Source of the DNA: Thiobacillus thioparus DSM 505
GTDB taxonomy: Bacteria > Pseudomonadota > Gammaproteobacteria > Burkholderiales > Thiobacillaceae
Length of the DNA: 64,000 bases
Assembly: GCF_000373385.1 (NCBI RefSeq)
Contig: NZ_KB891331.1
Span: 62,001 to 126,000, forward strand
Direction: 5' to 3'
Shown here piece by piece: positions 41,469-54,984 of the stretch (position 1 is the stretch's first letter; each line of letters starts with the position of its first letter). A model generated the notes under the pieces. It worked only from the letters and a program-made list of their open reading frames with translations. It did not search any database and had not been told where the DNA came from. A program made the translations under genes and the position numbers.

Positions 41469-42746
41469 TTACGGATGTGCGTGCTCGCTGTCCTGGTCCG
41501 CAGCCACATCGAGCGGCCACAATCTATGGGCGTCCAGCTTCAATCGGGCATCTGCCGCCAACGCAGCGAATTGCGCCTGCTGGGCGTTCAACTGGCCTTC
41601 CAGCGCCAGCCGACGGTTGAGCAACACCTGATCCAGACTGCCTTCGCCCAGGCTGTAGGCACGCGCCGCCAGGCGCGCCGCTTCAGCCAGCGACTGGGCG
41701 GCATGGTCGGCCTGTTGCCAGTTCGCCACCTGGGCCATCGCCGTCTCGAAATCCGCGCGCGCCTCCTGGCGCAAGCGTTGCTCCAGCCGAATGGCTGCCT
41801 CCTCTGCGGTGGTACTGAGCTGCTCGGCGGCCTGCTGGTCGGTACGCCGCGCGCTGCCCGGCAACGTCAGCCCGACGCTTACGCCCAGTTGGTGCTCACT
41901 GCCGCCCAATTCGTTTTTGTAGAACACGCCGACAGTGGGGTCGATACTGCGGCGGCTGGCCAGTTGTCGGGCTTCGGCCCGCAACACCTCGGCCTGGCGC
42001 CGCGCGCGGAACAGTTCGTGGTTGTGTGCCAGCACGGCGCTGACATAGTCCTCGGCCGGCCCGGCTGGCTCGACCGGCAACGGCAACGTGTCGTCCGCCG
42101 TCACCGGCAGGCCCGGGTATTGCGCCATGAGCCGGCTGCGCGCCCGCTGCTCGCGCGTGGCCGCCTGCTGCTGCTGCAGACGCGCCTGCGCCAGCGCCGC
42201 TTCCGCGTTGACGCGCTCGGAGCGCGGCGCCTCGCCCAGGCGAATGCGCGCATCCACGGTAGCGAGCTGCTGTTCGGCCAGATTCACCTGCGCCAGCCAC
42301 AGCCTGGTCTGGCCGGCTTCGTTCAGCCAGTCGAACCAGAGCGCAAGCAGTTGCCGTCCGCTTTCGTGCATCGCTTCACCGTAACTCGCTTCGGCGTGGG
42401 CGGTCAGCGCACCGGCAAGCACGCGGTCTGCCGCGGCGCGCCCGGGCAGACGCAGCGGGCGCGACAGCGCCACCCCCCACTCCGCGAAACGATCCTGCGG
42501 CGTATCGATCCGGCGTTGCAGGGCGTCCGCACCCAGCACCCACTCTTCGCGCCCGCGGCGCAGGCTCTCGCTTCGCAGCGATTGCGCGGCAAATTCGCCG
42601 CGTGCCTGCGCCACCATGGACGAGGCTCGCAGAGCGGCTTCGGCGGCAGCCGGATCAGGCAGATAATCGGCGTGCGCCATCGCGGAAAAAACCGGCGCGG
42701 CAAACGCCAGTGCCAGCGCAAGGGTCAATGTATGCACGGCACTCAT
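41469..42746 (-). CDS. TolC/CzcC-like outer-membrane efflux protein
   Basis: A 425-residue outer-membrane channel of a heavy-metal RND system. A signal peptide (about 1-26) is followed by long alpha-helical periplasmic repeats typical of CzcC/CusC/TolC (for example the SRPLRLPGRAAADR and VGLTLPGSARRTDQQAA segments). The N-terminus lacks a lipobox. It is the last gene of the czcI-like, adaptor, RND pump and outer-membrane run, with its start overlapping the RND stop by four bases. Confidence 0.9.
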   Translation of the reverse strand: MSAVHTLTLALALAFAAPVFSAMAHADYLPDPAAAEAALRASSMVAQARGEFAAQSLRSESLRRGREEWVLGADALQRRIDTPQDRFAEWGVALSRPLRLPGRAAADRVLAGALTAHAEASYGEAMHESGRQLLALWFDWLNEAGQTRLWLAQVNLAEQQLATVDARIRLGEAPRSERVNAEAALAQARLQQQQAATREQRARSRLMAQYPGLPVTADDTLPLPVEPAGPAEDYVSAVLAHNHELFRARRQAEVLRAEARQLASRRSIDPTVGVFYKNELGGSEHQLGVSVGLTLPGSARRTDQQAAEQLSTTAEEAAIRLEQRLRQEARADFETAMAQVANWQQADHAAQSLAEAARLAARAYSLGEGSLDQVLLNRRLALEGQLNAQQAQFAALAADARLKLDAHRLWPLDVAADQDSEHAHP

Positions 42747-45700
42747 GCGCGCACTCCTTTCAGAATGAATTGACGGTACAACAGCGGCAGCATCACCAGC
42801 GTCAGCAGGGTGGCGCTGACCAGGCCGCCGATGACGACGATGGCGAGCGGGCGCTGGATTTCGGAACCGGGCCCGGTCGCGAACAGCAGCGGCACCAGGC
42901 CGAACGCGGCGATGCTGGCGGTCATCAGCACCGGGCGCAGGCGCCGCAACGCGCCGTCACGCACCACGGCGTCGCCCTGCAGTCCCTGTGCACGCAACTG
43001 GTTGAAGTGGCTGACCAGCACCACGCCGTTCAGCACCGCGATGCCCAAGAGCGCAATGAAGCCGACCGAAGCGGGCACCGACAGATACTCGCCCGACGCC
43101 CACAGCGCGAAGATGCCGCCGATCAGTGCCAGTGGCACGTTCATCATCACCAGCAGCGCCTGGCGCGCATCGCCGAAGGTGACATACAGCAGGAAGCCGA
43201 TCAGCAGCAGCGCCACCGGCACCACGATCATCAGGCGTTTCGCGGCACGCTGCTGGTTTTCGAACTGGCCGCCCCAGGTCAAGCTGTAGCCAGGCGGCAG
43301 CTTGACCTGTGCGGCCACGGCAGCTTTCGCATCCTCGACGAAGCTGACCAGATCGCGCCCGGCGACGTTGCTCTGTACTACGGTGAAACGGGCTGCGTTT
43401 TCGCGCTTCACTGCCACCGGACCGTTGGTGCGCTTCAGGTGCGCCACCTGGTCGAGGCTGATCTCGCGGCCGTCAGCCAGGGTCAGGCGCAGCGCCTGCA
43501 GGGCATTGGGCGACGCGCGCAAATCGGCGGGCCCGCGCAATTGCAGTGGGATGCGCCGCCCCTGTTGCTGGATCGTGCCGATGACTTCGCCCTCGAGTTG
43601 CGTACGCAACAGCATGGCGATATCGTCGGCACTGAGACCGAAACGGGCAGCCGCATTCCGGTCGACTTCCGCCTGCAGATACTGCACGCCCGCGTTCTGC
43701 TGGGTATAGACGTCGGACGCGCCGGGGACTTTTCCGACCACGTTGAAGATCTCGCCGGTCAGCCGGTTGAGCGTGGCAAGGTCGGGGCCGAAAATCTTGA
43801 TCGCGACGTCGCCGCGCGAGCCGGTGAGCATTTCCGAGACCCGCATGTCGATCGGCTGGGTGAAAGTGTAGGCGATGCCGGGAAAGCCTTCGACCACGGT
43901 TCGGATTTCCCCGATCAGCCATTCCTTGTCCGGACGACGCCACTCGGTCATCGGCTTCAGCACCAGGAAGGAATCGGTGTCGTTGAGCCCCATCGGGTCG
44001 AGCCCGAGCTCGTCGGCGCCGGCGCGCGCAACGATTCGGCGGATCTCCGGCACATTCTTCAGCAGCGCCTGCTGCACCCGCAGATCCTGCGCGACAGCCT
44101 CTTCCAGGCTGATCGAGGGCAGTTTTTCCAGTTGTACCAGGATATCGCCCTCGTCCATGGTCGGCATGAAGGTTTTACCGATCAGCGGATAAACGCCGAC
44201 CGCCGCCAGCATCAGTACACCCGCAGTGACGTAGACGAGCTTCGGTCGCGCCAGCGCGCGATCGAGCAGCGGCGTGTAGAGGCCTTGCGCCTTGCGCAGC
44301 AGCCACGGATCGGTGTGCGCGCCCTGCTTCAGCAACATCGAGGCCAGCACCGGGATCACAGTGAGCGCAAGCAGCAGGGACGCCGCCAGGGCGAACACGA
44401 TGGTCAGCGCGACCGGCGCGAACAGCTTGCCTTCCAGGCCTTGCAGCGTCAGCAGCGGCAGGAACACGATGGCAATGATGGCGATGCCCGAAGTCACCGG
44501 GCGGGCGACTTCCTGCGTCGCCCACAGCACGCGCTGCGGCGGCGTTTCGCTGGTGTCTTCCGGATCGTGCGCCAGATGCGCGACGACGTTCTCCACCACC
44601 ACCACCGCTGCATCGACCAGCAAGCCGATCGCGATGGCCAGTCCGCCCAGGCTCATCAGGTTGGCGGACAACCCGAACTGGCGCATCAGCACAAACGTCG
44701 CCAGCACCGACAACGGCAGGATCAAGGCCACCACGATGGCCGCGCGTAGATTGCCAAGGAACAGCAGCAGCAGGATGACCACCAGCACCGCCGCCTCGAG
44801 CAGCGCCTTGCTCACCGTACCAACGGCGCGGTCGACCAGTTGCGCGCGGTCGTAGAACGGCGAAATCGTCACACCTTTGGGCAGGGTGGCCTGGATTTCT
44901 GCGAGCTTGGCCTTGACGTTCTTGATGAGCTCGCCCGCATTGACGCCTTTCAGGCCGATGACCAGGCCTTCCACGGCCTCGCCCCGGCCGTTTTGCGTCA
45001 CGGCGCCGTAGCGGGTCATCTCACCCAGTTCCACGCGCGCGACGTCGCTGACGGTGACGACCACGCCGCCCACTGTCTTGATGCCGATGTGCCGCAAATC
45101 CTCCAGCGAACCGATGCCGCCGTTGACGCGCACCACCCAGGTTTCCTCGCCTTCGTTGACACGCCCGGCGCCGTCGTTACGGGTGTTGCTTTCCAGCGCC
45201 CTGCGCAATTCGTCATAGGTGATGCCACGCGCGGCCAGTGCCGCCGGGTCGGGACTCACCGCGAAGGTGGCGACGCGGCCACCGAGCGAATTGACGTCGG
45301 CCACCCCGGGAATCGCCCGCAATTGCGGGCGCACCGTCCAGTCGAGCAGGGTGCGTTTTTCCGACAGCGACAGCGGCCCTTCGAGGGTGAACATGTAGAG
45401 TTCCGACAGTGGCGTGGAAATCGGCGCCAAGCCGCCCGATACGTTGGCAGGCAGATCGCCCTTCACGTTGGCGAAGCGCTCCGCCACCTGCTGACGCGCC
45501 CAGTAGATGTCCGTGCCTTCGGCAAAATCGACGGTAATGTCGACCAGAGCGTTTTTCGACTGGCTGCGCAGGATGGTCTGTTTCGGAATGCCCAGCAGTT
45601 CGGTTTCGACCGGTTGGGCGATGCGCGACTCCACCTCTTCCGGCGTCATGCCCGGCGCCTTCAGGATCAGCTTGACCTGGGTGGTCGAGACATCGGGGAA

Positions 45701-45814
45701 GGCATCGATGGGAATCTGCTGGAACGCGCGCACGCCCAGCCCAGCCAGCACCAGTGCCAACGCAAGGACGAACCAGCGTCGCGCGAGCGCGGTTTCGATC
45801 AGGATGTTCATCAT
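42743..45814 (-). CDS. Heavy-metal efflux RND transporter (CzcA/CusA family)
   Basis: A 1023-residue proton-driven RND pump of the HME family. Features: N-terminal MNILIETALARRWF with helix 1, DAFPDVSTTQVKL, periplasmic loops, the TM4 motif GGLAIAIGLLVDAAVVVVENV with the acidic residue, EGDILVQLEKLPSISLEEA, and a Met-containing periplasmic segment PIDMRVSEMLTG. Twelve transmembrane helices are expected. Metal choice (Cu/Ag versus Zn/Co/Cd/Ni) is not clear from sequence; a CusF-like gene nearby favours copper. Start at 45814 or the adjacent Met at 45811. It is two bases from the adaptor gene stop. Confidence 0.94.
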   Translation of the reverse strand: MMNILIETALARRWFVLALALVLAGLGVRAFQQIPIDAFPDVSTTQVKLILKAPGMTPEEVESRIAQPVETELLGIPKQTILRSQSKNALVDITVDFAEGTDIYWARQQVAERFANVKGDLPANVSGGLAPISTPLSELYMFTLEGPLSLSEKRTLLDWTVRPQLRAIPGVADVNSLGGRVATFAVSPDPAALAARGITYDELRRALESNTRNDGAGRVNEGEETWVVRVNGGIGSLEDLRHIGIKTVGGVVVTVSDVARVELGEMTRYGAVTQNGRGEAVEGLVIGLKGVNAGELIKNVKAKLAEIQATLPKGVTISPFYDRAQLVDRAVGTVSKALLEAAVLVVILLLLFLGNLRAAIVVALILPLSVLATFVLMRQFGLSANLMSLGGLAIAIGLLVDAAVVVVENVVAHLAHDPEDTSETPPQRVLWATQEVARPVTSGIAIIAIVFLPLLTLQGLEGKLFAPVALTIVFALAASLLLALTVIPVLASMLLKQGAHTDPWLLRKAQGLYTPLLDRALARPKLVYVTAGVLMLAAVGVYPLIGKTFMPTMDEGDILVQLEKLPSISLEEAVAQDLRVQQALLKNVPEIRRIVARAGADELGLDPMGLNDTDSFLVLKPMTEWRRPDKEWLIGEIRTVVEGFPGIAYTFTQPIDMRVSEMLTGSRGDVAIKIFGPDLATLNRLTGEIFNVVGKVPGASDVYTQQNAGVQYLQAEVDRNAAARFGLSADDIAMLLRTQLEGEVIGTIQQQGRRIPLQLRGPADLRASPNALQALRLTLADGREISLDQVAHLKRTNGPVAVKRENAARFTVVQSNVAGRDLVSFVEDAKAAVAAQVKLPPGYSLTWGGQFENQQRAAKRLMIVVPVALLLIGFLLYVTFGDARQALLVMMNVPLALIGGIFALWASGEYLSVPASVGFIALLGIAVLNGVVLVSHFNQLRAQGLQGDAVVRDGALRRLRPVLMTASIAAFGLVPLLFATGPGSEIQRPLAIVVIGGLVSATLLTLVMLPLLYRQFILKGVRA

Positions 45815-45817
45815 GGA

Positions 45818-46891
45818 TTACTCTCCCAGCCACTGCGCCTTGAGCGCCGCCACACCCTTGGCGGCAACGCGGCTGCCGGTGGCCAGGCCGGTCACTTCGG
45901 CCTGGCTGGCATTCTGGCGAATCAGCTGCACCGGTGTCGGCGCGAAGCCCTGCGCGGTTTCGACGAATACATAGGGCAGGCTGGCCTGCCATACCAACGC
46001 GGCGGCCGGCACAATCAGGGTCTGGGCCGTCTGTTTGCCCTGCGGGACAGATGTTCCGGCCAGGGCAACCTGAACCGACTGGCCGGGACGCAGCAGCTTG
46101 TCGGGATCGACAAGGCTGGCGCGCGCCAGCACGCTTTGCGACGCATTGAGTTGCGGCAGCAGCGCAATGACACGCCCGCTGGCCTTGCTGTCCGCCACCG
46201 TCACGGATTGCCCGACCGCCACCTGGCGCGCCTGAATCGTCGACAACGGAATCTCCAGGGCCAGATTCGACAGATCCGCCACCTTCACCAGCGCCATGCC
46301 GGCATCCACGCGCTGGCCCGGCTCCGCGACACTCTCCGTCACCACGCCGGCGATCGGTGCGGTCAGCGTGATCGAACTGCCTGTCACCTTGCCCGCGCCC
46401 ATCATGGACAATGCGGTCTGTGCCGCAACCAGGCTGGCATGCGCCGACTGGGCCTCGGAGCGGGTGGCGCGCAGGCGCGACTCCGCGATCAGGCCCTCGC
46501 TGAACAGTTTTTCGTCGCGCGCGGCATTGCTGGTCGCCAGCTGCGATCTCAGCCGCGCCTGTGTCAGGGCATTCTGCGCTTCGGCCAGGCCGGTCATCGA
46601 CAGGGTGACGAGCGGGGCGCCGCGCTTGACCGTGTCGCCCGCCTGTACATGCAGCTGGGTGACCAGGCCGGCGCCGGCCGCCGCGGCCACACGCACACTG
46701 GCAGGCGGCAGGGTCACCCGCGCCGTATAGGCGAGCGCGGGACTGGTGTCTTGCGTGGCCGCAACGACGGTGACGATGCCAAGGTTCTTCTTCTGCGCGG
46801 CGGACAAGGGCAGGACGTCGGCTGCGAAAGCCGGGGCGGCGCCGAGCAACGCCAATACGAGAATACGAGTAGAAACATAACCAGCGATCAT
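45818..46891 (-). CDS. Periplasmic adaptor of the heavy-metal RND system (CzcB/CusB-like)
   Basis: A 357-residue membrane-fusion protein. A signal peptide (about 1-23, ending AAPAFA) precedes a lipoyl-like domain (VTQLHVQAGDTVKRGAPLVTL), an alpha-hairpin with the segments LTQARLRSQLATSNAARDE and SRLRATRSEAQSAHASL, a beta-barrel domain (APIAGVVTESVAEPGQRVDAG) and a C-terminal membrane-proximal domain. GGAG seven bases before the ATG at 46891 supports the start; the open frame extends much further upstream only as a shadow. It lies upstream of the RND pump gene, with a two-base gap. Confidence 0.92.
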   Translation of the reverse strand: MIAGYVSTRILVLALLGAAPAFAADVLPLSAAQKKNLGIVTVVAATQDTSPALAYTARVTLPPASVRVAAAAGAGLVTQLHVQAGDTVKRGAPLVTLSMTGLAEAQNALTQARLRSQLATSNAARDEKLFSEGLIAESRLRATRSEAQSAHASLVAAQTALSMMGAGKVTGSSITLTAPIAGVVTESVAEPGQRVDAGMALVKVADLSNLALEIPLSTIQARQVAVGQSVTVADSKASGRVIALLPQLNASQSVLARASLVDPDKLLRPGQSVQVALAGTSVPQGKQTAQTLIVPAAALVWQASLPYVFVETAQGFAPTPVQLIRQNASQAEVTGLATGSRVAAKGVAALKAQWLGE

Positions 46892-46953: not shown

Positions 46954-47343
46954 TCAGCGGCGCGGCGGCGCCAGCGCGTGCGGCAGGGCGTGATCGGGGA
47001 GTACGGCCTGCAAGGGGGCGACGTCCAGCCAGGCAGGGCCTGGCCTGGCTGCTCTTGCCGCCGACGGCGGAAGCGCCGGTGCCGGGTATGACGCATCGGC
47101 ATCCGCCACAAACAGCACGGCCTGCCGCAACGATCGTATACCCTGCGCCACCTCGATCTCTGCGCCCTGCTCCCTGTTTTCGGCCAGGTGATAGGCCACG
47201 TCGCCAGGCACGCCCGCATGGCCATGCAGCCAACTTGCATGGCTCGCTTGCGCCGATCCCGCATGGGCATGGACGAACGGCGTCATCGCCTGCAAGGCGA
47301 TGACCAACCAGAGCATCAACAGGCGAAGAAATCGGTTCGGCAC
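46954..47343 (-). CDS. CzcI-like small His-rich secreted protein
   Basis: About 129 residues: signal peptide (LLMLWLVIALQAMTPF, then VHAHAG), then a His-rich stretch (SHASWLHGHAGVPG) and a low-complexity Ala/Pro C-terminus. In metal-resistance operons of betaproteobacteria a small secreted protein of this kind (CzcI and relatives) often precedes the RND genes, as here. I use GTG at 47343 because a TATAAT at 47374-47379 would place the transcript start near 47367; a longer ATG at 47424 would lie upstream of that. The identification as CzcI is by position and size only. Confidence 0.6.
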   Translation of the reverse strand: MPNRFLRLLMLWLVIALQAMTPFVHAHAGSAQASHASWLHGHAGVPGDVAYHLAENREQGAEIEVAQGIRSLRQAVLFVADADASYPAPALPPSAARAARPGPAWLDVAPLQAVLPDHALPHALAPPRR

Positions 47344-47379: not shown

Positions 47380-47438
47380 TGGATGGGCGTCGGCACTGAT
47401 CCCTCCACCAGGCTCGATGCGCATCCTGCCTGTGAATT

Positions 47439-47455
47439 CTTAAGACCGCCTTAAG
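47439..47455. promoter_or_regulatory. Tandem CTTAAG-N5-CTTAAG operator upstream of the RND operon
   Basis: A perfect CTTAAG ACCGC CTTAAG repeat, the same 11-base register as PmrA (CTTAAT-N5-CTTAAT) and QseB (CTTAA-N6-CTTAA) boxes. It is in the spacer between the interrupted reductase gene and the czcI-like gene, both on the minus strand, so it most likely controls the RND operon. A near-identical site precedes the operon that encodes a QseB/PmrA-like regulator (49007-49023). Confidence 0.75.
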
Positions 47456-47507
47456 TGGCTGTCCGGCGCGCCTGGCAGGGCGGTCGTTCCATTTCGGACG
47501 ATGGCTT

Positions 47508-47585
47508 TCAGCGCATCTGAAACACTTCCTGGTGAAAATCATCCGGCGCCAGGCCATGGACGACGAAATCGTTCCGTATGGCCTA
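47508..47585 (-). other. Remnant 3' end of the flavocytochrome reductase gene after an in-frame amber
   Basis: Directly after the TAG (47585-47583) the same frame continues for 24 codons (AIRNDFVVHGLAPDDFHQEV to FQMR, then TGA). This matches the usual C-terminus of ferredoxin-reductase-like proteins (G-Q/K-A-L-R...FHQE-F-MR). The TAG sits where a Gln or Lys codon is normal, so a CAG to TAG change would explain it. Confidence 0.82.
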
Positions 47586-48842
47586 GCCAAATCCCGGCGG
47601 ACCGCAGAACCAGATGCTCGCCGACTGCCATTGCGGCACGGCTGCGCGAATGCGATCGGCATCGAGTCGTCCATCTTTCCCGCTGACCAGCACATGCAGG
47701 CGTACATGGGCCGCCTGGGCATCGGCCGTGAGTTTGTCGATGGCGGCCTGTTCGAAATCCGCCGTCGGATGGAACAGGTCGATCTCCTGTTCGCCGGGCA
47801 TGCGCGCCAGCTGCTTCATGCGGGCGATGAAGGGGGTGATGCCGATGCCGGCGCCGATCCATATCTGGCGCGAGCGCCCGTCGCGGAAATCGAAGCAGCC
47901 ATAAGGCCCTTCCACCGTGACGGGCGCACCGATCTTCAAGCGATCATGCAGCTTGCTGGTATGGTCGCCAAGCGCCTTGGTGATGAAGACGATGCGGCGG
48001 TCATCGGCGTCCCAGGCCGATGCAATCGTGTACGGATGAGCGCCTTCGCTTTTTCTGGACGTGACAAAGGCAAACTGTCCGGCATTGTGGCCAGGCCAGC
48101 CGCTTTCCAGGCGGATAGCCGTTTCGAGTACGCGCAATTCCGGGTAGTAGATGAGCGATTCGATCGTGCCCTGCACTCTGCGGTTGACCCCGACGCGACG
48201 CAACAGGACAAGCAGCGCCGCCACGGTGCCGCCCAGCATCAACAGGGCCATGGCCCACCCGACTGGCTGCGACCAGTAGGCAAACTTGAGCAGCACGACG
48301 GAGTGATAAACCAGTATCAGATAAACCACCGCCAGCCATTTGTGCGTCTTGGTGAACAGGTGGTAGGGAAAACGCCTGACCAGCGCCAGGACGATCAGCA
48401 CCACCGCGGCATAAAACGCCCACTCGCCCAGCGATTCAGCCAGCCCGCGCTGGCCGCGCAGCCAGCTCTCGGCCGGCCCCAGCATCTGGCCGGCAGCCGA
48501 CTTGCGTGCAGGCCTGCTGAGCCATCCCCAGCCCACCATCCACTTGGTTCCTTGCGCCCACCACCAGTGAATGCAGGAAAACACCAGCCCGGTGATCCCC
48601 AGCCATTTATGCAAGCGATACATCTTGTCGAGCCCGTCCAGAGGGGGCTCCAGCCATTTTGGCCGCGTGGCCAGCAGCATGGCGACACTCATGGCGCCCA
48701 TGCCGATGACGCCGGTGTATTGCATCAGTACGGTGCGAAGCGCGAAATAGGTGAAAGGATCGGGCACCCACGTGTCGGCCAGCAACCACAGAGCCGTCAG
48801 TGCCAGCAGTAGCGCCCAAAAAACCAGCTTGATGTTCTTCAT
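47583..48842 (-). CDS. Ferric-reductase-like flavocytochrome, C-terminally truncated by amber
   Basis: The visible product has 419 residues. It has an N-terminal ferric-reductase transmembrane domain with about six helices and heme-ligand His candidates (MYRLHKWLGITGLVFSCIHWW, THKWLAVVYLILVYH), then a FAD-binding domain (GHNAGQFAFVT, HPYTIAS) and an NAD-binding domain (WIGAGIGITPFIARM) ending at FCGPPGFG. It moves electrons from NAD(P)H to a periplasmic acceptor, perhaps metal. The last 25 codons, normally ending in FHQE-F-MR, are beyond the in-frame TAG. The ATG at 48842 is chosen as the start of the first helix. Function may be lost unless the TAG is read through. Confidence 0.8.
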   Translation of the reverse strand: MKNIKLVFWALLLALTALWLLADTWVPDPFTYFALRTVLMQYTGVIGMGAMSVAMLLATRPKWLEPPLDGLDKMYRLHKWLGITGLVFSCIHWWWAQGTKWMVGWGWLSRPARKSAAGQMLGPAESWLRGQRGLAESLGEWAFYAAVVLIVLALVRRFPYHLFTKTHKWLAVVYLILVYHSVVLLKFAYWSQPVGWAMALLMLGGTVAALLVLLRRVGVNRRVQGTIESLIYYPELRVLETAIRLESGWPGHNAGQFAFVTSRKSEGAHPYTIASAWDADDRRIVFITKALGDHTSKLHDRLKIGAPVTVEGPYGCFDFRDGRSRQIWIGAGIGITPFIARMKQLARMPGEQEIDLFHPTADFEQAAIDKLTADAQAAHVRLHVLVSGKDGRLDADRIRAAVPQWQSASIWFCGPPGFG

Positions 48843-49006
48843 GCCCAAATCTCGATCCGGTTGATTGCAAATGGCTCCGCGCGATGACTCAAAGTACGCA
48901 TGTGGACATGCATGTGTTTTTCGACCCACTGTCAGAATAGCTTTTACGCGCGTATTTGGAGAAGGTGAACCCATGCGGCGCCCAGGATTGCCGAATAAAC
49001 GTTTCT

Positions 49007-49023
49007 CTTAAGGTGCCCCTAAG
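49007..49023 (+). promoter_or_regulatory. CTTAAG-N5-CCTAAG operator upstream of the b561/SHP/DHC/two-component operon
   Basis: CTTAAG at 49007-49012, five bases, then CCTAAG at 49018-49023: a tandem repeat in the same 11-base register as the perfect site at 47439-47455. A -10-like TACAGT lies at 49034-49039, so the repeat would overlap the -35 region, as PmrA boxes do. The downstream operon encodes the QseB/PmrA-like regulator itself, which suggests autoregulation. Confidence 0.7.
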
Positions 49024-49068
49024 CTGGGGCGCATACAGTCTGCTGCATTCCCCTCTCAGGAGACTGCC

Positions 49069-49692
49069 ATGTCACATGCCGCCACCCATCCGCACCGCGT
49101 GTTCGACCCCTTGCTGCGCCTGCTGCACTGGGTCATTGCGCTGTCCATCGTATCGCTCATCGTCACCAGCCAACTGGCCGACTGGTTCGAACACGGGCCG
49201 TATGAAAAGACACTCTGGAATCTGCACATTCTCATCGGCTACACCCTGACGGCAGGCCTGTTGACACGCCTGCTGTGGAGTTTGGCTGGTCCGGCCAGCG
49301 CGCGTTGGCGCGACCTGTGGCATCCCGCCGTGTGGAAGGACAGCGTCAGGAATTTGCGCCTGCCCAAGACCCACCGCGCCGGACACGATCCGCTCGCCAG
49401 CCTGGGCTATCTGTTCGCCTATGGCGTGATGACGCTGATGGTCGTCACCGGGCTGGGGCTGGCCGCCAGCGAATTCCAGACGGGCCCGCTCGCCGGCTGG
49501 CTGGGCGATGTGGCGTGGCTGGAGGATGTGCTGGGTGAACCGCACGAATTCGGATTCGGCCTGATGCTCGGTTTCATCGGCCTGCATCTGGCTGCGCTGG
49601 TGTTTCACCAATGGCGCGGCGAACGGGTGGCGCAAAGCATGGTGACCGGCAAGCAATACCTCGGCACGGGAAACGAGGTGCAGCATGATTAA
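49069..49692 (+). CDS. Cytochrome b561-type membrane protein
   Basis: A 207-residue protein with four transmembrane helices and histidines in the heme-ligand positions: DPLLRLLHWVIALS, LWNLHILIGYTL, GLMLGFIGLHLAALVFH. A VWKDSVRNLRLPKTHRAGHDPLA loop follows the second helix. It resembles the membrane cytochrome b that accompanies SHP and diheme cytochrome c. It probably delivers quinol electrons to the soluble cytochromes encoded next, overlapping the following start by eight bases. AGGAG at 49058-49062 is its ribosome-binding site. Confidence 0.9.
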   Translation: MSHAATHPHRVFDPLLRLLHWVIALSIVSLIVTSQLADWFEHGPYEKTLWNLHILIGYTLTAGLLTRLLWSLAGPASARWRDLWHPAVWKDSVRNLRLPKTHRAGHDPLASLGYLFAYGVMTLMVVTGLGLAASEFQTGPLAGWLGDVAWLEDVLGEPHEFGFGLMLGFIGLHLAALVFHQWRGERVAQSMVTGKQYLGTGNEVQHD

Positions 49693-50095
49693 GCCCCTTC
49701 TCTACGGTGGCCTGGCGGTACTCGGCATGGCCTCCGCCATGGCGAAGGCCGACAGCCCTGCCAGTCTGATGGCGCAGTATGCGCAGCAGGCGGGCGTGCC
49801 GGTGTCCGGCTTGTCCGCCTCGCGCGGCGCGACCTTGTATCGCACCGAGCACCCGGGCCGCGATGGTCAGGCCGTGAGCTGTGCCGGCTGCCACACCGCC
49901 AACCCGGCCCAGGCCGGACGCAGCCGCGTCGGCAAGCGCATCGAGCCGCTGGCGCCGGCGGCCAATCCGCAGCGCTTCACCGATGCGGCCAAGGTCGAGA
50001 AATGGTTCCGACGCAACTGCCAGGATGTCCTGCAACGCGAATGCAGCGCGCAAGAAAAGGGCGATTTCATCGCCTGGTTGAGCCAGGCCCGATAA
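49685..50095 (+). CDS. SHP-type cytochrome c (DUF1924)
   Basis: A 136-residue periplasmic protein with signal peptide (about 1-22). The heme site is CAGCH (Cys66-His70). The C-terminal half strongly resembles the sphaeroides heme protein: RIEPLAPAANPQRFTD, VEKWFRRNCQDVLQREC. In SHP an Asn is the sixth iron ligand and is displaced by O2 or NO; here the matching residue is Asn111, and Cys112/Cys120 would form the loop disulfide. Encoded between cytochrome b561 and a diheme cytochrome c, its expected partners. Confidence 0.92.
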   Translation: MIKPLLYGGLAVLGMASAMAKADSPASLMAQYAQQAGVPVSGLSASRGATLYRTEHPGRDGQAVSCAGCHTANPAQAGRSRVGKRIEPLAPAANPQRFTDAAKVEKWFRRNCQDVLQRECSAQEKGDFIAWLSQAR

Positions 50096-50105
50096 GGAGC
50101 ACACC

Positions 50106-50636
50106 ATGAATTATCTATTACGCGGAATCGGGGTCGTCGCGGCGGTCGGCGTATTCAGCCTGTTGGCGTTTTCGTTGCCTTCGGGCGATGCGCATGGCGA
50201 TGGCGGCGGCAATGTCCTGCCACGGACGGCCAACAAGGCCTGGCAACAGGAATGCGCAAGCTGCCATATCGCCTATTCGCCGGCTTTCCTGCCGAAGGCG
50301 TCGTGGCGACGCCTGATGAGCGGGCTCGACCAGCACTTCGGTGAAAACGCCAGCCTTGATCCGGCAACCCAGGCTGATATCCTGCGATTCCTGGAGGCCA
50401 ACGCCGCCGACAGCGGCACCAGCCGGATGGGCAGTCGGGTGATGCAAAGCATGGGAGTCAGTGCGGCACCCTTGCGCATCACCGACACCCGCTGGTTCGT
50501 GCGCAAGCACGACGAGGTTTCGCAGGCGACGTGGTCGCGCAAATCGATCGGCTCCGCCGCCAATTGTGCTGCCTGCCACCGCCAGGCGGAACAGGGCGTG
50601 TTCGACGAGGACACGGTCAGGATTCCGAAACAATGA
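50106..50636 (+). CDS. Diheme cytochrome c (DHC family)
   Basis: A 176-residue periplasmic protein with an N-terminal signal/anchor (about 1-30). Two heme sites: CASCH (Cys50-His54) and CAACH (Cys154-His158), with WRRLMSGLDQHFGENASLD between them, the DHC pattern. DHC passes electrons from membrane cytochrome b to SHP. It starts ten bases after the SHP stop. The response-regulator gene follows after 20 bases. Confidence 0.92.
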   Translation: MNYLLRGIGVVAAVGVFSLLAFSLPSGDAHGDGGGNVLPRTANKAWQQECASCHIAYSPAFLPKASWRRLMSGLDQHFGENASLDPATQADILRFLEANAADSGTSRMGSRVMQSMGVSAAPLRITDTRWFVRKHDEVSQATWSRKSIGSAANCAACHRQAEQGVFDEDTVRIPKQ

Positions 50637-50656: not shown

Positions 50657-51325
50657 ATGCGCATATTGTTGGTGGAAGATGACCGCCTTCTGGGCGACGG
50701 CCTGCAGGTGGGACTGACCCAGGCGGGCTATGCCGTCGACTGGCTGCGCGATGGCGAGGCGGCGGTAATGGCCCTGTCCACCGAATCGTTTGCGGCTGTG
50801 GTGCTCGACCTGGGGCTGCCGAAACGCGACGGCCTGTCGGTGCTGCAATGGCTGCGTGGGCGCCATGACGCGACGCCGGTGCTGATCCTGACCGCGCGCG
50901 ACCAGCTGGAGGACAAAGTGCGCGGGCTTGACCTCGGCGCCGATGACTATGTGCTGAAGCCCTTCGACCTCGACGAGATTACCGCCCGCCTGCGCGCGCT
51001 GGTACGGCGCGCCCATGGCCGCCCTGAGCCCGTGCTCGCCGTCGGCGAGATCGAACTCAATCCGGCGGCACGCAGCGTGACGCGCGCCGGCCAGGCCGTC
51101 GAACTGACCCCGCGCGAATTCGACCTGCTGCACCTGCTGCTGGAAAACACCGACCGGGTGCTGACACGCCGCGCGTTGGAAGAACAGCTCTACACCTGGA
51201 ACGAGGCCGTCGACAGTAACGCGCTCGAAGTCCACATCCACCACCTGCGGAAGAAGCTCGGCAACGACCTGATCCGTACCGTGCGCGGCGTCGGCTACAT
51301 GGTGCCGGCGGGCGCGACGCCATGA
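50657..51325 (+). CDS. OmpR-family response regulator (QseB/PmrA-like)
   Basis: A 222-residue two-component regulator. Receiver domain (about 1-115): MRILLVEDDRLLGDGL with the acidic pocket, VVLDLGLPKRDG carrying the phospho-acceptor Asp, and LGADDYVLKPF with the conserved Lys. The winged-helix DNA-binding domain (about 125-222) ends HIHHLRKKLG and VRGVGYMV. It resembles QseB/PmrA. The CTTAAG-type operator pair seen upstream (49007-49023) and near the RND operon (47439-47455) fits the known binding site of that subfamily. The stop overlaps the sensor kinase start by four bases. Confidence 0.94.
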   Translation: MRILLVEDDRLLGDGLQVGLTQAGYAVDWLRDGEAAVMALSTESFAAVVLDLGLPKRDGLSVLQWLRGRHDATPVLILTARDQLEDKVRGLDLGADDYVLKPFDLDEITARLRALVRRAHGRPEPVLAVGEIELNPAARSVTRAGQAVELTPREFDLLHLLLENTDRVLTRRALEEQLYTWNEAVDSNALEVHIHHLRKKLGNDLIRTVRGVGYMVPAGATP

Positions 51326-52692
51326 ACCAGCCCTATTCCCTGCGGCGGCGGCTGGTGTGGCTGCTGACCGGCTCGGTGGCGGCGATCTGGCTGCTGTCCG
51401 CGCTGGTGGTGTATCAGCGCGCGCACCATGAAGCGGACGAATTGCTCGACGGCCAGCTGACACAGGTCGCCGACACCTTGCTGGCGATCGTGGCGGCCGG
51501 CGAAGTCGAGCATTTTGCGAAGGAACTCCAGGATCACAGCCATCACAATCCGGTGCCCATCGCATTCGAGGTGTGGCACGACACTGACGGACGGATGCTG
51601 CGTCTGGCCACGTCCATGGGTCACGCCGGGTTTGAATCCGGGATCGGGCCGGGATTCAGCGAGCGCCAGTACGAAGGCGCACGCTGGCGATTCTATGCGG
51701 TACAGGATCCCGACGCGGAATATCGGGTCGTCGTCGGCCAGGCCCACGCGGCACGCGAAGGTCTGGCGCGCGAGATTGGCCTGTCTCTGCTGATTCCCGC
51801 CGCGCTGGCGCTGCCGCTGATGGCGCTGGCGGTCTGGTGGGGCATCGGCCGCAACCTGCGGCCGGTGGATACGGTGGCGCACCAAGTCGGCGCGCTCGAT
51901 GTGCAGGCCCTGACGCCACTCGACGAATCGCCCGCCCTGCCCGAAGAAATTGCGCCGCTGCGCGCCGCACTCAACGCACTGATCCGGCGCGTCAACGAAG
52001 CCTTCGAAAACGAGCGCCGCTTCACCGCGGATGCCGCGCACGAATTGCGCACCCCGCTGGCGGCATTGAAAGTGCAGACGCAGGTCGCGCTGCGCGCGCA
52101 AACGGCTGACAGCCAGCAGCATGCGCTGGCGCAGGTGATCGTCGGCGTAGACCGGATGACGCACCTGGTCGAGCAATTGCTGACCCTCGCGCGCGTCGAT
52201 CCGGCTACGCAGGGCAGCCCGCCCGCGCCCCTGGATCCCGCAGAAATCGTGGCGACAGTGTGCGAAGAACTTTTGCCCCAAGCGCAACGCCAGGGGCAAA
52301 CCCTGACGGTCGATGCGGCAGCGGGATGCCGTATCGCCATCACGGCGGCATGGCTGCAGGTCGCGGTCCGCAACCTGCTCGACAACGCCGTTCACTATGC
52401 GGGGGAAGGCGCGCGGATCGACGTACGCATCGCGCATCGCGGAACGAGCTGTGCCATCACCGTTGCCGACGATGGCCCAGGCGTGGCCCCTGCGCTGCGG
52501 TCGCAACTCAGTGCCCGCTTCGTGCGCGGAGAGGTCGAAAACGAGGGATGCGGCCTCGGTCTTTCCATCGTCGCGCGCATTGCAGCACTCTCACATGCCC
52601 AGCTTGAACTGGGGGATGGACTGCAGCGTGCGGATGGCGGCCACGGGTTTGCGGCCACGCTGCGCTTCAACGCAACGACCGTTCCCGCCTAA
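51322..52692 (+). CDS. Sensor histidine kinase (QseC-like)
   Basis: A 456-residue inner-membrane kinase. TM1 (about 13-30, LVWLLTGSVAAIWLLSALVV) and TM2 (about 153-175) bound a periplasmic sensor of about 120 residues with a His-rich part (KELQDHSHHNPVP), then HAMP-like and HisKA domains (FTADAAHELRTPLAALK, phospho-His) and an HATPase domain (NLLDNAVHYA, DDGPGVAP, GCGLGLSIVARI). It phosphorylates the response regulator. The histidines in its periplasmic loop might sense metal, an inference. The ATG at 51322 overlaps the regulator stop. Confidence 0.93.
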   Translation: MNQPYSLRRRLVWLLTGSVAAIWLLSALVVYQRAHHEADELLDGQLTQVADTLLAIVAAGEVEHFAKELQDHSHHNPVPIAFEVWHDTDGRMLRLATSMGHAGFESGIGPGFSERQYEGARWRFYAVQDPDAEYRVVVGQAHAAREGLAREIGLSLLIPAALALPLMALAVWWGIGRNLRPVDTVAHQVGALDVQALTPLDESPALPEEIAPLRAALNALIRRVNEAFENERRFTADAAHELRTPLAALKVQTQVALRAQTADSQQHALAQVIVGVDRMTHLVEQLLTLARVDPATQGSPPAPLDPAEIVATVCEELLPQAQRQGQTLTVDAAAGCRIAITAAWLQVAVRNLLDNAVHYAGEGARIDVRIAHRGTSCAITVADDGPGVAPALRSQLSARFVRGEVENEGCGLGLSIVARIAALSHAQLELGDGLQRADGGHGFAATLRFNATTVPA

Positions 52693-52709: not shown

Positions 52710-53093
52710 CTAGCGGCGGGAACCGGACCCCATGCCAGAACCCGGTCCCATTCCTGGTCCCATCCCCGGCCCCATACCGGATCCGGGCCCCATGCCCGCA
52801 GGCGGCATGTCGGGCAGGGTCTTGCCCTGGGCCTGGGCACGCTCCTGCATCTGCTTGTGATGTTCCAGGCGGAAAGCTTCGCGTTCCTGCTGGGTTTTCA
52901 GCGTACGCATGTGATTGCGGTATTCGATCCGCTCCTGCTGTGTCATCAGTTCGGAACCGTAAATACGATCCTGATCCCGTACCTGGGTGCGGTCCTGATC
53001 GCGCGCCTGATCGGCGGCGTATACCGGCATGATGCCCGCCATCCCCAAGGAAAGGGCAAGGGCGGCTATTGATATGCGTGATATGCGTTTCAT
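52710..53093 (-). CDS. Secreted Met/Gly-rich low-complexity protein
   Basis: A 127-residue exported protein with a signal peptide (about 1-26, ending VYAA), a charged helical middle (RDQDRTQVRDQDRIYG, RNHMRTLKTQQEREAF) and a C-terminal tail of MGPG/SGMG repeats (about 98-125). The Met-rich tail, next to copper genes, could bind Cu(I), but this is inference. AAGGAG six bases before the ATG at 53093 supports the start. I do not recognise a family. Confidence 0.75.
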   Translation of the reverse strand: MKRISRISIAALALSLGMAGIMPVYAADQARDQDRTQVRDQDRIYGSELMTQQERIEYRNHMRTLKTQQEREAFRLEHHKQMQERAQAQGKTLPDMPPAGMGPGSGMGPGMGPGMGPGSGMGSGSRR

Positions 53094-53250
53094 CTCTGTC
53101 TCCTTAGCGAAATAAATGTCCTCACACGCGATATTGCGCCTGCTCGACATTGTTCATTTCCAATCTAGTACAAACGACCTGCTTATCCTAATGTTGGATG
53201 CTTCATGCCTGAATGACCCTCCGCGGTTCGCCAGATCCAGGTCTTGTCCG

Positions 53251-53595: not shown

Positions 53596-54984
53596 TCAAT
53601 GACCGGCGTGGCCGGTGGGTTTGCGCACAGTCACTTCGACGTCGCCCGGCATGCCCTGGGGCGAGGCGGCTTGCGGCGCGCGCACGGCCGGCTCGGCCGA
53701 CGCATCGAGGACTTCGCGCGCCTGCGTGCCAGGTGGCTGCTTGTACCAGCCAGAGTCGGAATAGTCGCCGCGTTTCTGTCCGCGCCGCACCTTCATGACA
53801 CTGAACATGCCGCCCATCTCGACCGAGCCGAAGGGGCCTCGGCCGGTCATCATCGGCAGCGTGTTGTCGGGCAGCGGCATCTCCATGTTGGCCATGTCGG
53901 CCATGCCGCGCTCGCCCATTGCCATGTAGTCGGGAATGAGCTTGTTGATCTTGCTCGCCAGGCCGCTGTAATCGACGCCGATCATGGTTGGCACCGCATG
54001 GCCCATTGCATTCATGGTGTGATGGCTTTTGTGGCAGTGGAAGGCCCAGTCGCCTTCCTCGTCGGCGACGAATTCGATCTGGCGCATCTGACCGACCGCG
54101 ATGTCAACGGTCACCTCCGGCCAGCGTGCCGATTTCGGCACCGGACCGCCATCGGTGCCAGTCACCTCGAAATCCACGCCGTGCAGATGCATCGGGTGGT
54201 TGGTCATGGTGAGGTTGCCCATGCGGATGCGCACCCGATCGTTCAGTCGCACATTGAGCGTGTCGATGCCCGGAAAGGCACGGCTGTTCCAGGTCCACAG
54301 GTTGAAGTCGAGCATGGTATTCACCGAGGGCGTGGCGCTACCGGGGTCGATATCGTAGGCGTTGATGAGGAAGCAGAAATCGCGGTCGACCGGTTCGATC
54401 AAGGGGTGTTTGCCTTTGGGATGCGTCACCCAGAAACCCATCATGCCCATCGCCATCTGCGTCATCTCGTCGGCGTGCGGGTGGTACATGAAGGTACCGG
54501 GGCGGCGCGCGACGAATTCGTAGACGAAGGTCTTGCCCGGCTGGATATGGGGCTGGGTCAGCCCGCCAATGCCGTCCATGCCATTGGGCAGGCGCTGGCC
54601 GTGCCAGTGGATGGTGGTGTGTTCGGGCAGGCGGTTGGTGACGAAAATACGCACGCGATCGCCTTCCACCACTTCTATCGTGGGGCCGGGGCTCTGGCCG
54701 TTGTAACCCCACAGATGCGCCTTCATGCCGGGCGCGATCTCGCGCACCACCGGCTCGGCGACGAGGTGGAACTCCTTCACGCCATCTTTCATGCGCCAGG
54801 GCAGCGTCCAGCCGTTCAGCGTCACCACCGGATTGTAGGGACGGCCGTTGGGCGGCAGCAGCGGTGGCTGGGTATCGGGCTTGTCCATGCTGATCACTTC
54901 AGGAAGGACCGCCAGGGCAGCCGGGCTCACCGTAGCGACGGCTGCTGCTCCGCCGAGTTTGAAAAAATCACGTCTTGAGGTCAT
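53596..54984 (-). CDS. Multicopper oxidase (CopA/CueO-like), TAT-exported
   Basis: A 462-residue copper oxidase. The Tat signal begins MTSRRDFFKLGG. Copper-ligand motifs are IHWHGQ, YHPHADEM, NHPMHLHG and FHCHKSHHTMNAM (the type 1/type 3 pattern). A Met-rich region is seen at about 370-420 (GMADMANMEM, DNTLPMM), which is common in copper-detoxifying enzymes. It may oxidise Cu(I) in the periplasm. The ATG at 54984 has AAAGGA seven bases before it. It is followed by the TolC-like gene upstream and by the CusF gene downstream. Confidence 0.93.
   Translation of the reverse strand: MTSRRDFFKLGGAAAVATVSPAALAVLPEVISMDKPDTQPPLLPPNGRPYNPVVTLNGWTLPWRMKDGVKEFHLVAEPVVREIAPGMKAHLWGYNGQSPGPTIEVVEGDRVRIFVTNRLPEHTTIHWHGQRLPNGMDGIGGLTQPHIQPGKTFVYEFVARRPGTFMYHPHADEMTQMAMGMMGFWVTHPKGKHPLIEPVDRDFCFLINAYDIDPGSATPSVNTMLDFNLWTWNSRAFPGIDTLNVRLNDRVRIRMGNLTMTNHPMHLHGVDFEVTGTDGGPVPKSARWPEVTVDIAVGQMRQIEFVADEEGDWAFHCHKSHHTMNAMGHAVPTMIGVDYSGLASKINKLIPDYMAMGERGMADMANMEMPLPDNTLPMMTGRGPFGSVEMGGMFSVMKVRRGQKRGDYSDSGWYKQPPGTQAREVLDASAEPAVRAPQAASPQGMPGDVEVTVRKPTGHAGH

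Follow-up and report, generated by a model that had tools for sequence, protein, structure and literature searches.

A shared direct-repeat promoter architecture probably joins an SHP cytochrome/two-component operon and an RND metal pump operon in Thiobacillus

The SHP, a c-type haem protein that binds oxygen, was recognised decades ago, yet its function is still unsettled. In the available portion of a 2010 proteobacterial survey, QseC-like sensors are found in SHP operons and a link between SHP and Czc is suggested, mainly for the SK1 systems of Chromatiaceae (PMC2909971). When Allochromatium vinosum grows on pyrite, expression of the SHP/DHC/b561 cluster and its regulator rises jointly with that of a CzcA-type RND (PMC11267869). 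The sensor there is of the SK1 type, so this co-induction is only analogous to the case described below.

Among the related regulators, BqsR is an activator, and the downstream pentamer of its TTAAG-N6-TTAAG repeat overlaps the -35 element (PMC4682146). The BqsRS kinase senses Fe2+ via an ExxE motif (PMC12666569). The verified PmrA boxes include CTTAAT-N5-CCTAAG (PMC3973317), and Salmonella PreA/QseB strongly activates a cytochrome b561 gene (PMC2653508). Here, we describe a locus of Thiobacillus thioparus DSM 505 that we read, with a probability of about 0.8 on comparative grounds, as a self-activating two-component system with a small local regulon, co-inducing SHP cytochromes and a heavy-metal efflux (HME) RND pump.

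The window, meaning the whole stretch analysed, comprises 64,000 nucleotides (contig NZ_KB891331.1, positions 62,001 to 126,000). On its plus strand, tightly packed genes from 49069 encode a cytochrome b561-type membrane protein (49069..49692, PF01292), the monohaem c-type protein SHP (DUF1924; 49685..50095, PF09086), a dihaem cytochrome c or DHC (50106..50636, PF09626), an OmpR-type response regulator of the QseB/PmrA clade (50657..51325) and a QseC-like sensor kinase with a 2CSK_N periplasmic domain (51322..52692, by profile matches). All of them being in one operon, this is an SHP operon with an SK2 sensor.

The pump operon runs on the minus strand. It comprises a small leader gene of 120 aa (46954..47316), a membrane-fusion protein (45818..46891, PF16576 and TIGR01730 above cut-off), an HME-type RND transporter (42743..45814) and an outer-membrane channel, OEP (41469..42746, PF02321). 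The profile matches bear out the b561, SHP, DHC, OmpR-type and RND pump assignments of a first-pass annotation. Its 'czcI-like' frame is indeed a conserved small leader gene, but no Pfam family matches it to back that label.

The transporter belongs to the CusA/CzcA subfamily of heavy-metal efflux (TIGR00914, 1067.5 bits against a cut-off of 701.45), and its nearest solved structures are ZneA and CusA. At the positions aligned with the methionine triad of CusA, a Cu+/Ag+ pump, it carries not methionines but acidic residues as in ZneA, judged by eye on the CusA alignment rather than by structure. This tentatively suggests that the exported ion would be divalent.

The best solved-structure match of the regulator is PmrA, and its recognition helix, SNALEVHIHHLRKKLG in this genome, follows the PmrA-type pattern EVHIHxLRxK. 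Both proteins score below the equivalog cut-offs, the regulator with 262.3 against 345 bits for QseB and 252 against 330 for PmrA, and the kinase with 276.9 against 475 for QseC and 189.5 against 314 for PmrB. Hence the resemblance to QseB/PmrA noted earlier holds for the helix of that clade but does not extend to membership in either equivalog, QseBC being the closest named family for regulator and kinase. The periplasmic domain of the kinase contains HHEADE in most, not all, orthologues, and an ExxE iron motif is not strictly conserved among them.

As the first-pass annotation had claimed, a perfect CTTAAG-N5-CTTAAG precedes the pump operon at 47439..47455 (CTTAAGACCGCCTTAAG, read on the minus strand as CTTAAGGCGGTCTTAAG; 0 mismatches), and a one-mismatch copy, CTTAAG-N5-CCTAAG, precedes the cytochrome/two-component operon at 49007..49023 on the plus strand (CTTAAGGTGCCCCTAAG). 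Each consists of two TTAAG/CTTAA half-sites that point the same way and are 11 bp apart, as in the PmrA/BqsR-type operators. In shuffles of the window, 0.28 matches are expected at up to two mismatches versus two observed, and two were reached in 4 of 100 shuffles. These window-only statistics are weak alone, so a genome-wide count was needed.

Over the 3,201,518 bases of the genome, no site beyond these two comes within one mismatch, and the reversed pattern gives five. At up to two mismatches the count is 15 sites versus 96 with the pattern reversed, which makes the motif otherwise rare in this genome. The search for regulon members across the genome was by pattern matching only. It argues against a random occurrence of the repeats at many unrelated promoters, which the first-pass annotation had named as the outcome that would undo the link.

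The operator is followed at both sites by a predicted -10 hexamer exactly 10 bp downstream, CAGGAT in the pump promoter (47423..47428, minus strand) and TACAGT in the b561 promoter (49034..49039, plus strand). This equal distance and the minus-strand reading of the pump site, whose composite of operator and -10 spans 47423-47455, had been missed earlier. With 15 fixed positions (box, N10, YANNNT), the motif has its single exact match in the window at the pump, and the b561 site differs by one mismatch, its downstream half-site being degenerate (NNTAAG).

Scanning the genome with a core of 12 positions from the motif gave one exact match, the pump site, and two with one mismatch. One of the latter is the b561 site. 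The other lies on contig C2 (C2:159980-160011, L212) before a PepSY_2/DUF2271 gene pair, about 500 bp away from the first clear ORF.

Neither promoter has a -35 element at the proper distance, where the bases read AGGCGG and AGGTGC, so the box takes its place. A box over the -35 place that keeps exactly 10 bp from the -10 shows the class II activator geometry, as with BqsR, and supports the activation proposed in the first-pass annotation. The opposite sign is improbable but deserves weighing. A regulator that kept RNA polymerase off both promoters, until a signal relieved the repression, would work at the same -35 position, and repression in the phosphorylated state has been proposed for some family members (discussed in PMC2653508). 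The missing -35 and the exact spacing make repression the less likely sign at these promoters.

The fixed geometry can be followed in the relatives. Regulator and pump regions were fetched from the same-genus genomes, 38 of which have a readable pump promoter. The box, at up to one mismatch, precedes 37 of the 38 pump operons, in genomes that are related and not independent samples. An xANNNT hexamer begins at exactly +10 bp in 37/38, and it is CAGGAT in 26/38. For three loci (L037, L056, L057) the automatic pick was a neighbouring divergent box, and the pump-proximal one was set by hand before this count. On the b561 side, the composite promoter lies close upstream in all 32 aligned operons of the genus, with xANNNT at +10 in 32/32. 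Other offsets in the same-genus promoters give far lower counts.

Within 56 genomes of the genus, the composite motif at up to one mismatch has about 108 matches, both strands summed, versus 7 when the motif is reversed. Of 77 such sites in 36 genomes, 49 fall within the fetched regulator and pump loci. The single exception among the 38 pump promoters is that of genome G067, whose pump and regulator lie on separate contigs; the box before the pump is missing there, so the link between regulator and pump is not universal. Other RND pumps were considered as targets and rejected, the G002 pump (62%) being without the box.

Some loci of the comparison depart from the common layout. L107 and L053 hold remnants of the pump operon, namely the outer-membrane channel and, in L107, also the pump end; the pump and its promoter have seemingly been deleted. 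In three Thiobacillus genomes (L059, L109 and L111), b561 and SHP are lost and DHC is lost or degenerate, and the common promoter precedes, in b561's place, a sulfatase-fold membrane gene (Pfam assignment made on one of the three) beside the regulator-kinase pair. This layout resembles pmrCAB.

The surroundings of the two sites in T. thioparus contain further genes. Between them lies a ferric-reductase-like gene (47583-48842, minus strand), which the earlier annotation had missed. Its in-frame TAG at 47583-47585 comes about 25 codons short of the frame end in the close relatives G016 and G060, where the gene is intact. The site at 49007 was considered as its divergent promoter and rejected, as the minus strand there has no -10 at +10 and the gene is in only three examined loci (this genome, G016 and G060).

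Downstream of the kinase are a Tat-signal multicopper oxidase (53596-54984) and a small unnamed exported protein (52710-53150), both often kept beside the regulator. The small gene was likewise considered as the place of a third conserved site, and this was rejected, an upstream box being found only in L045 and L055 and absent in this genome. L041 has a differently placed box at the corresponding gene.

Beyond the genus, Rhodocyclaceae (Dechloromonas and others) have a pump of about 65% identity, in most of them upstream of the SHP operon and on the same strand, an orientation opposite to that in Thiobacillus. The composite site, at up to 2 mismatches in 15, precedes the membrane-fusion gene in six of nine genomes. 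Degenerate copies with 3 and 4 mismatches occupy the same position in two more, making 8/9, and one of the nine has no composite site before the pump. Among SHP-type operons outside the genus, 36 of 41 have the box (up to two mismatches, within 260 bp), followed by a -10 at +10 in 32 of the 36 and often arranged as tandem boxes at an 11-bp period. The downstream half-site over the -35 place with a -10 behind it, the arrangement of the PmrA/BqsR-type operators, recurs outside Thiobacillus.

The distribution of the boxes also bears on who would read them. That another OmpR-family regulator, a paralogue encoded elsewhere, does so instead of the cognate one is improbable, a shade more so than repression. 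Three more regulators in the genome match at 44-50% identity, and a 61% paralogue in some Thiobacillus genomes (L064, L065, L116, L117) is accompanied by TTAAG-type boxes of its own close to its operon. However, the TTAAG boxes follow the operon of the cognate regulator across genera, and G006, a genome without the regulator, has no TTAAG boxes. The nearest paralogue in the T. thioparus genome, at C2:39261, adjoins GTAAG-N6-GTAAG boxes with a -10 and has a different helix, EVYIHRLRRKL, which makes its reading of the TTAAG boxes unlikely.

Two such GTAAG boxes with a following -10 stand beside this paralogous regulator, at C2:38820 and 39151 (L119 at about 9821 and 10152). GTAAG-N6-GTAAG is likely a sister operator with changed specificity.

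The idea that the repeat is incidental sequence co-inherited in a conserved cluster, with no shared regulation, has very little left for it: the two operons do adjoin in most genomes examined, but box and -10 are nearly unchanged amid freely varying intergenic flanks, the genes between the two sites differ among same-genus loci, and the paired sites persist at operon distances of about 0.1 kb (L035, L054), 2 kb, 6 kb (L033) and 10-11 kb (L041), and the pump box persists in another family with a different gene order.

Hence the cognate regulator, acting as an activator at both promoters, is the reading that we retain. The comparison strongly supports the first-pass proposal that a regulator of the PmrA/QseB clade would control both its own cytochrome operon and the RND operon. 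The further tie between periplasmic redox and metal homeostasis that was proposed there is conjectural. The distance from box to start signal is equal in both promoters and is kept in relatives despite the change in gene order, which makes it very probable that a single sensor switches on the two operons. From these sequence patterns, we infer box binding by the cognate regulator, activation rather than repression and positive autoregulation.

In the proposed mechanism, the QseC-like kinase would phosphorylate the response regulator (50657-51325), most likely on a periplasmic metal or metal-plus-redox signal, the metal nature of which is a tentative part of the scheme. The phosphorylated regulator, as a tandem dimer, would occupy the direct repeat TTAAG-N6-TTAAG, which stands in for the -35 of the two promoters, and would recruit RNA polymerase to the -10 found 10 bp beyond it. 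One promoter would drive b561, SHP, DHC, regulator and kinase, hence the positive autoregulation, and the other the HME-RND efflux operon. The outcome would be a local two-operon regulon in which SHP electron-transfer proteins and metal-ion efflux are co-induced.

More speculatively, and with odds clearly below even, SHP may be part of a metal-stress response. One self-activating two-component system, in several betaproteobacterial families, might sense periplasmic metal, perhaps Fe2+, and co-induce SHP electron transfer and RND export, with SHP dealing with the oxidation or reduction of the metal being exported. A small regulon that gives SHP and a metal pump one promoter architecture would reduce the question of SHP function to which metal or redox signal the kinase senses and whether cells that lose SHP become metal-sensitive. 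The operator model TTAAG-N6-TTAAG-N10-YANNNT can be used to find regulon members in other betaproteobacteria.

Among the known systems, PmrAB targets lipid A modification genes, unlike the operons here. The half-sites of the enterobacterial PmrAB (BasRS), CTTAAT/CCTAAG, are likewise 5 bp apart and are bound head to tail (PMC3973317). The Fe(II)-responsive BqsRS/CarRS of Pseudomonas aeruginosa likewise works from TTAAG-N6-TTAAG, its downstream repeat covering the -35, and it is an activator with targets for cationic stress (PMC4682146); the individual targets differ from those here. The BqsR motif has 432 near-matches at up to two changes in its genome, whereas the present one has two at up to one mismatch. 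Outside Thiobacillus the conserved box core is TTAAG with a variable leading C, so the operator core TTAAG-N6-TTAAG, as read from these alignments, matches BqsR no less well than PmrA/QseB.

QseBC/PreAB is autoregulated and its Salmonella member activates cytochrome b561 (PMC2653508), but among the targets reported in the part of this literature available there is no RND metal pump. The SHP operons with an SK2 (QseC-like) sensor in the available portion of the 2010 survey have b561, SHP, DHC and a QseC-like pair in one operon, as here. That portion gives no operator (PMC2909971), and the shared promoter architecture described here for SK2-type systems supports the SHP-Czc link proposed in it. 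The two-operon SHP and HME-RND regulon seems undescribed in the literature surveyed. Thus the operator is of the known PmrA/BqsR/QseB kind, while the predicted content of its regulon, SHP cytochromes together with an HME-RND pump, appears new.
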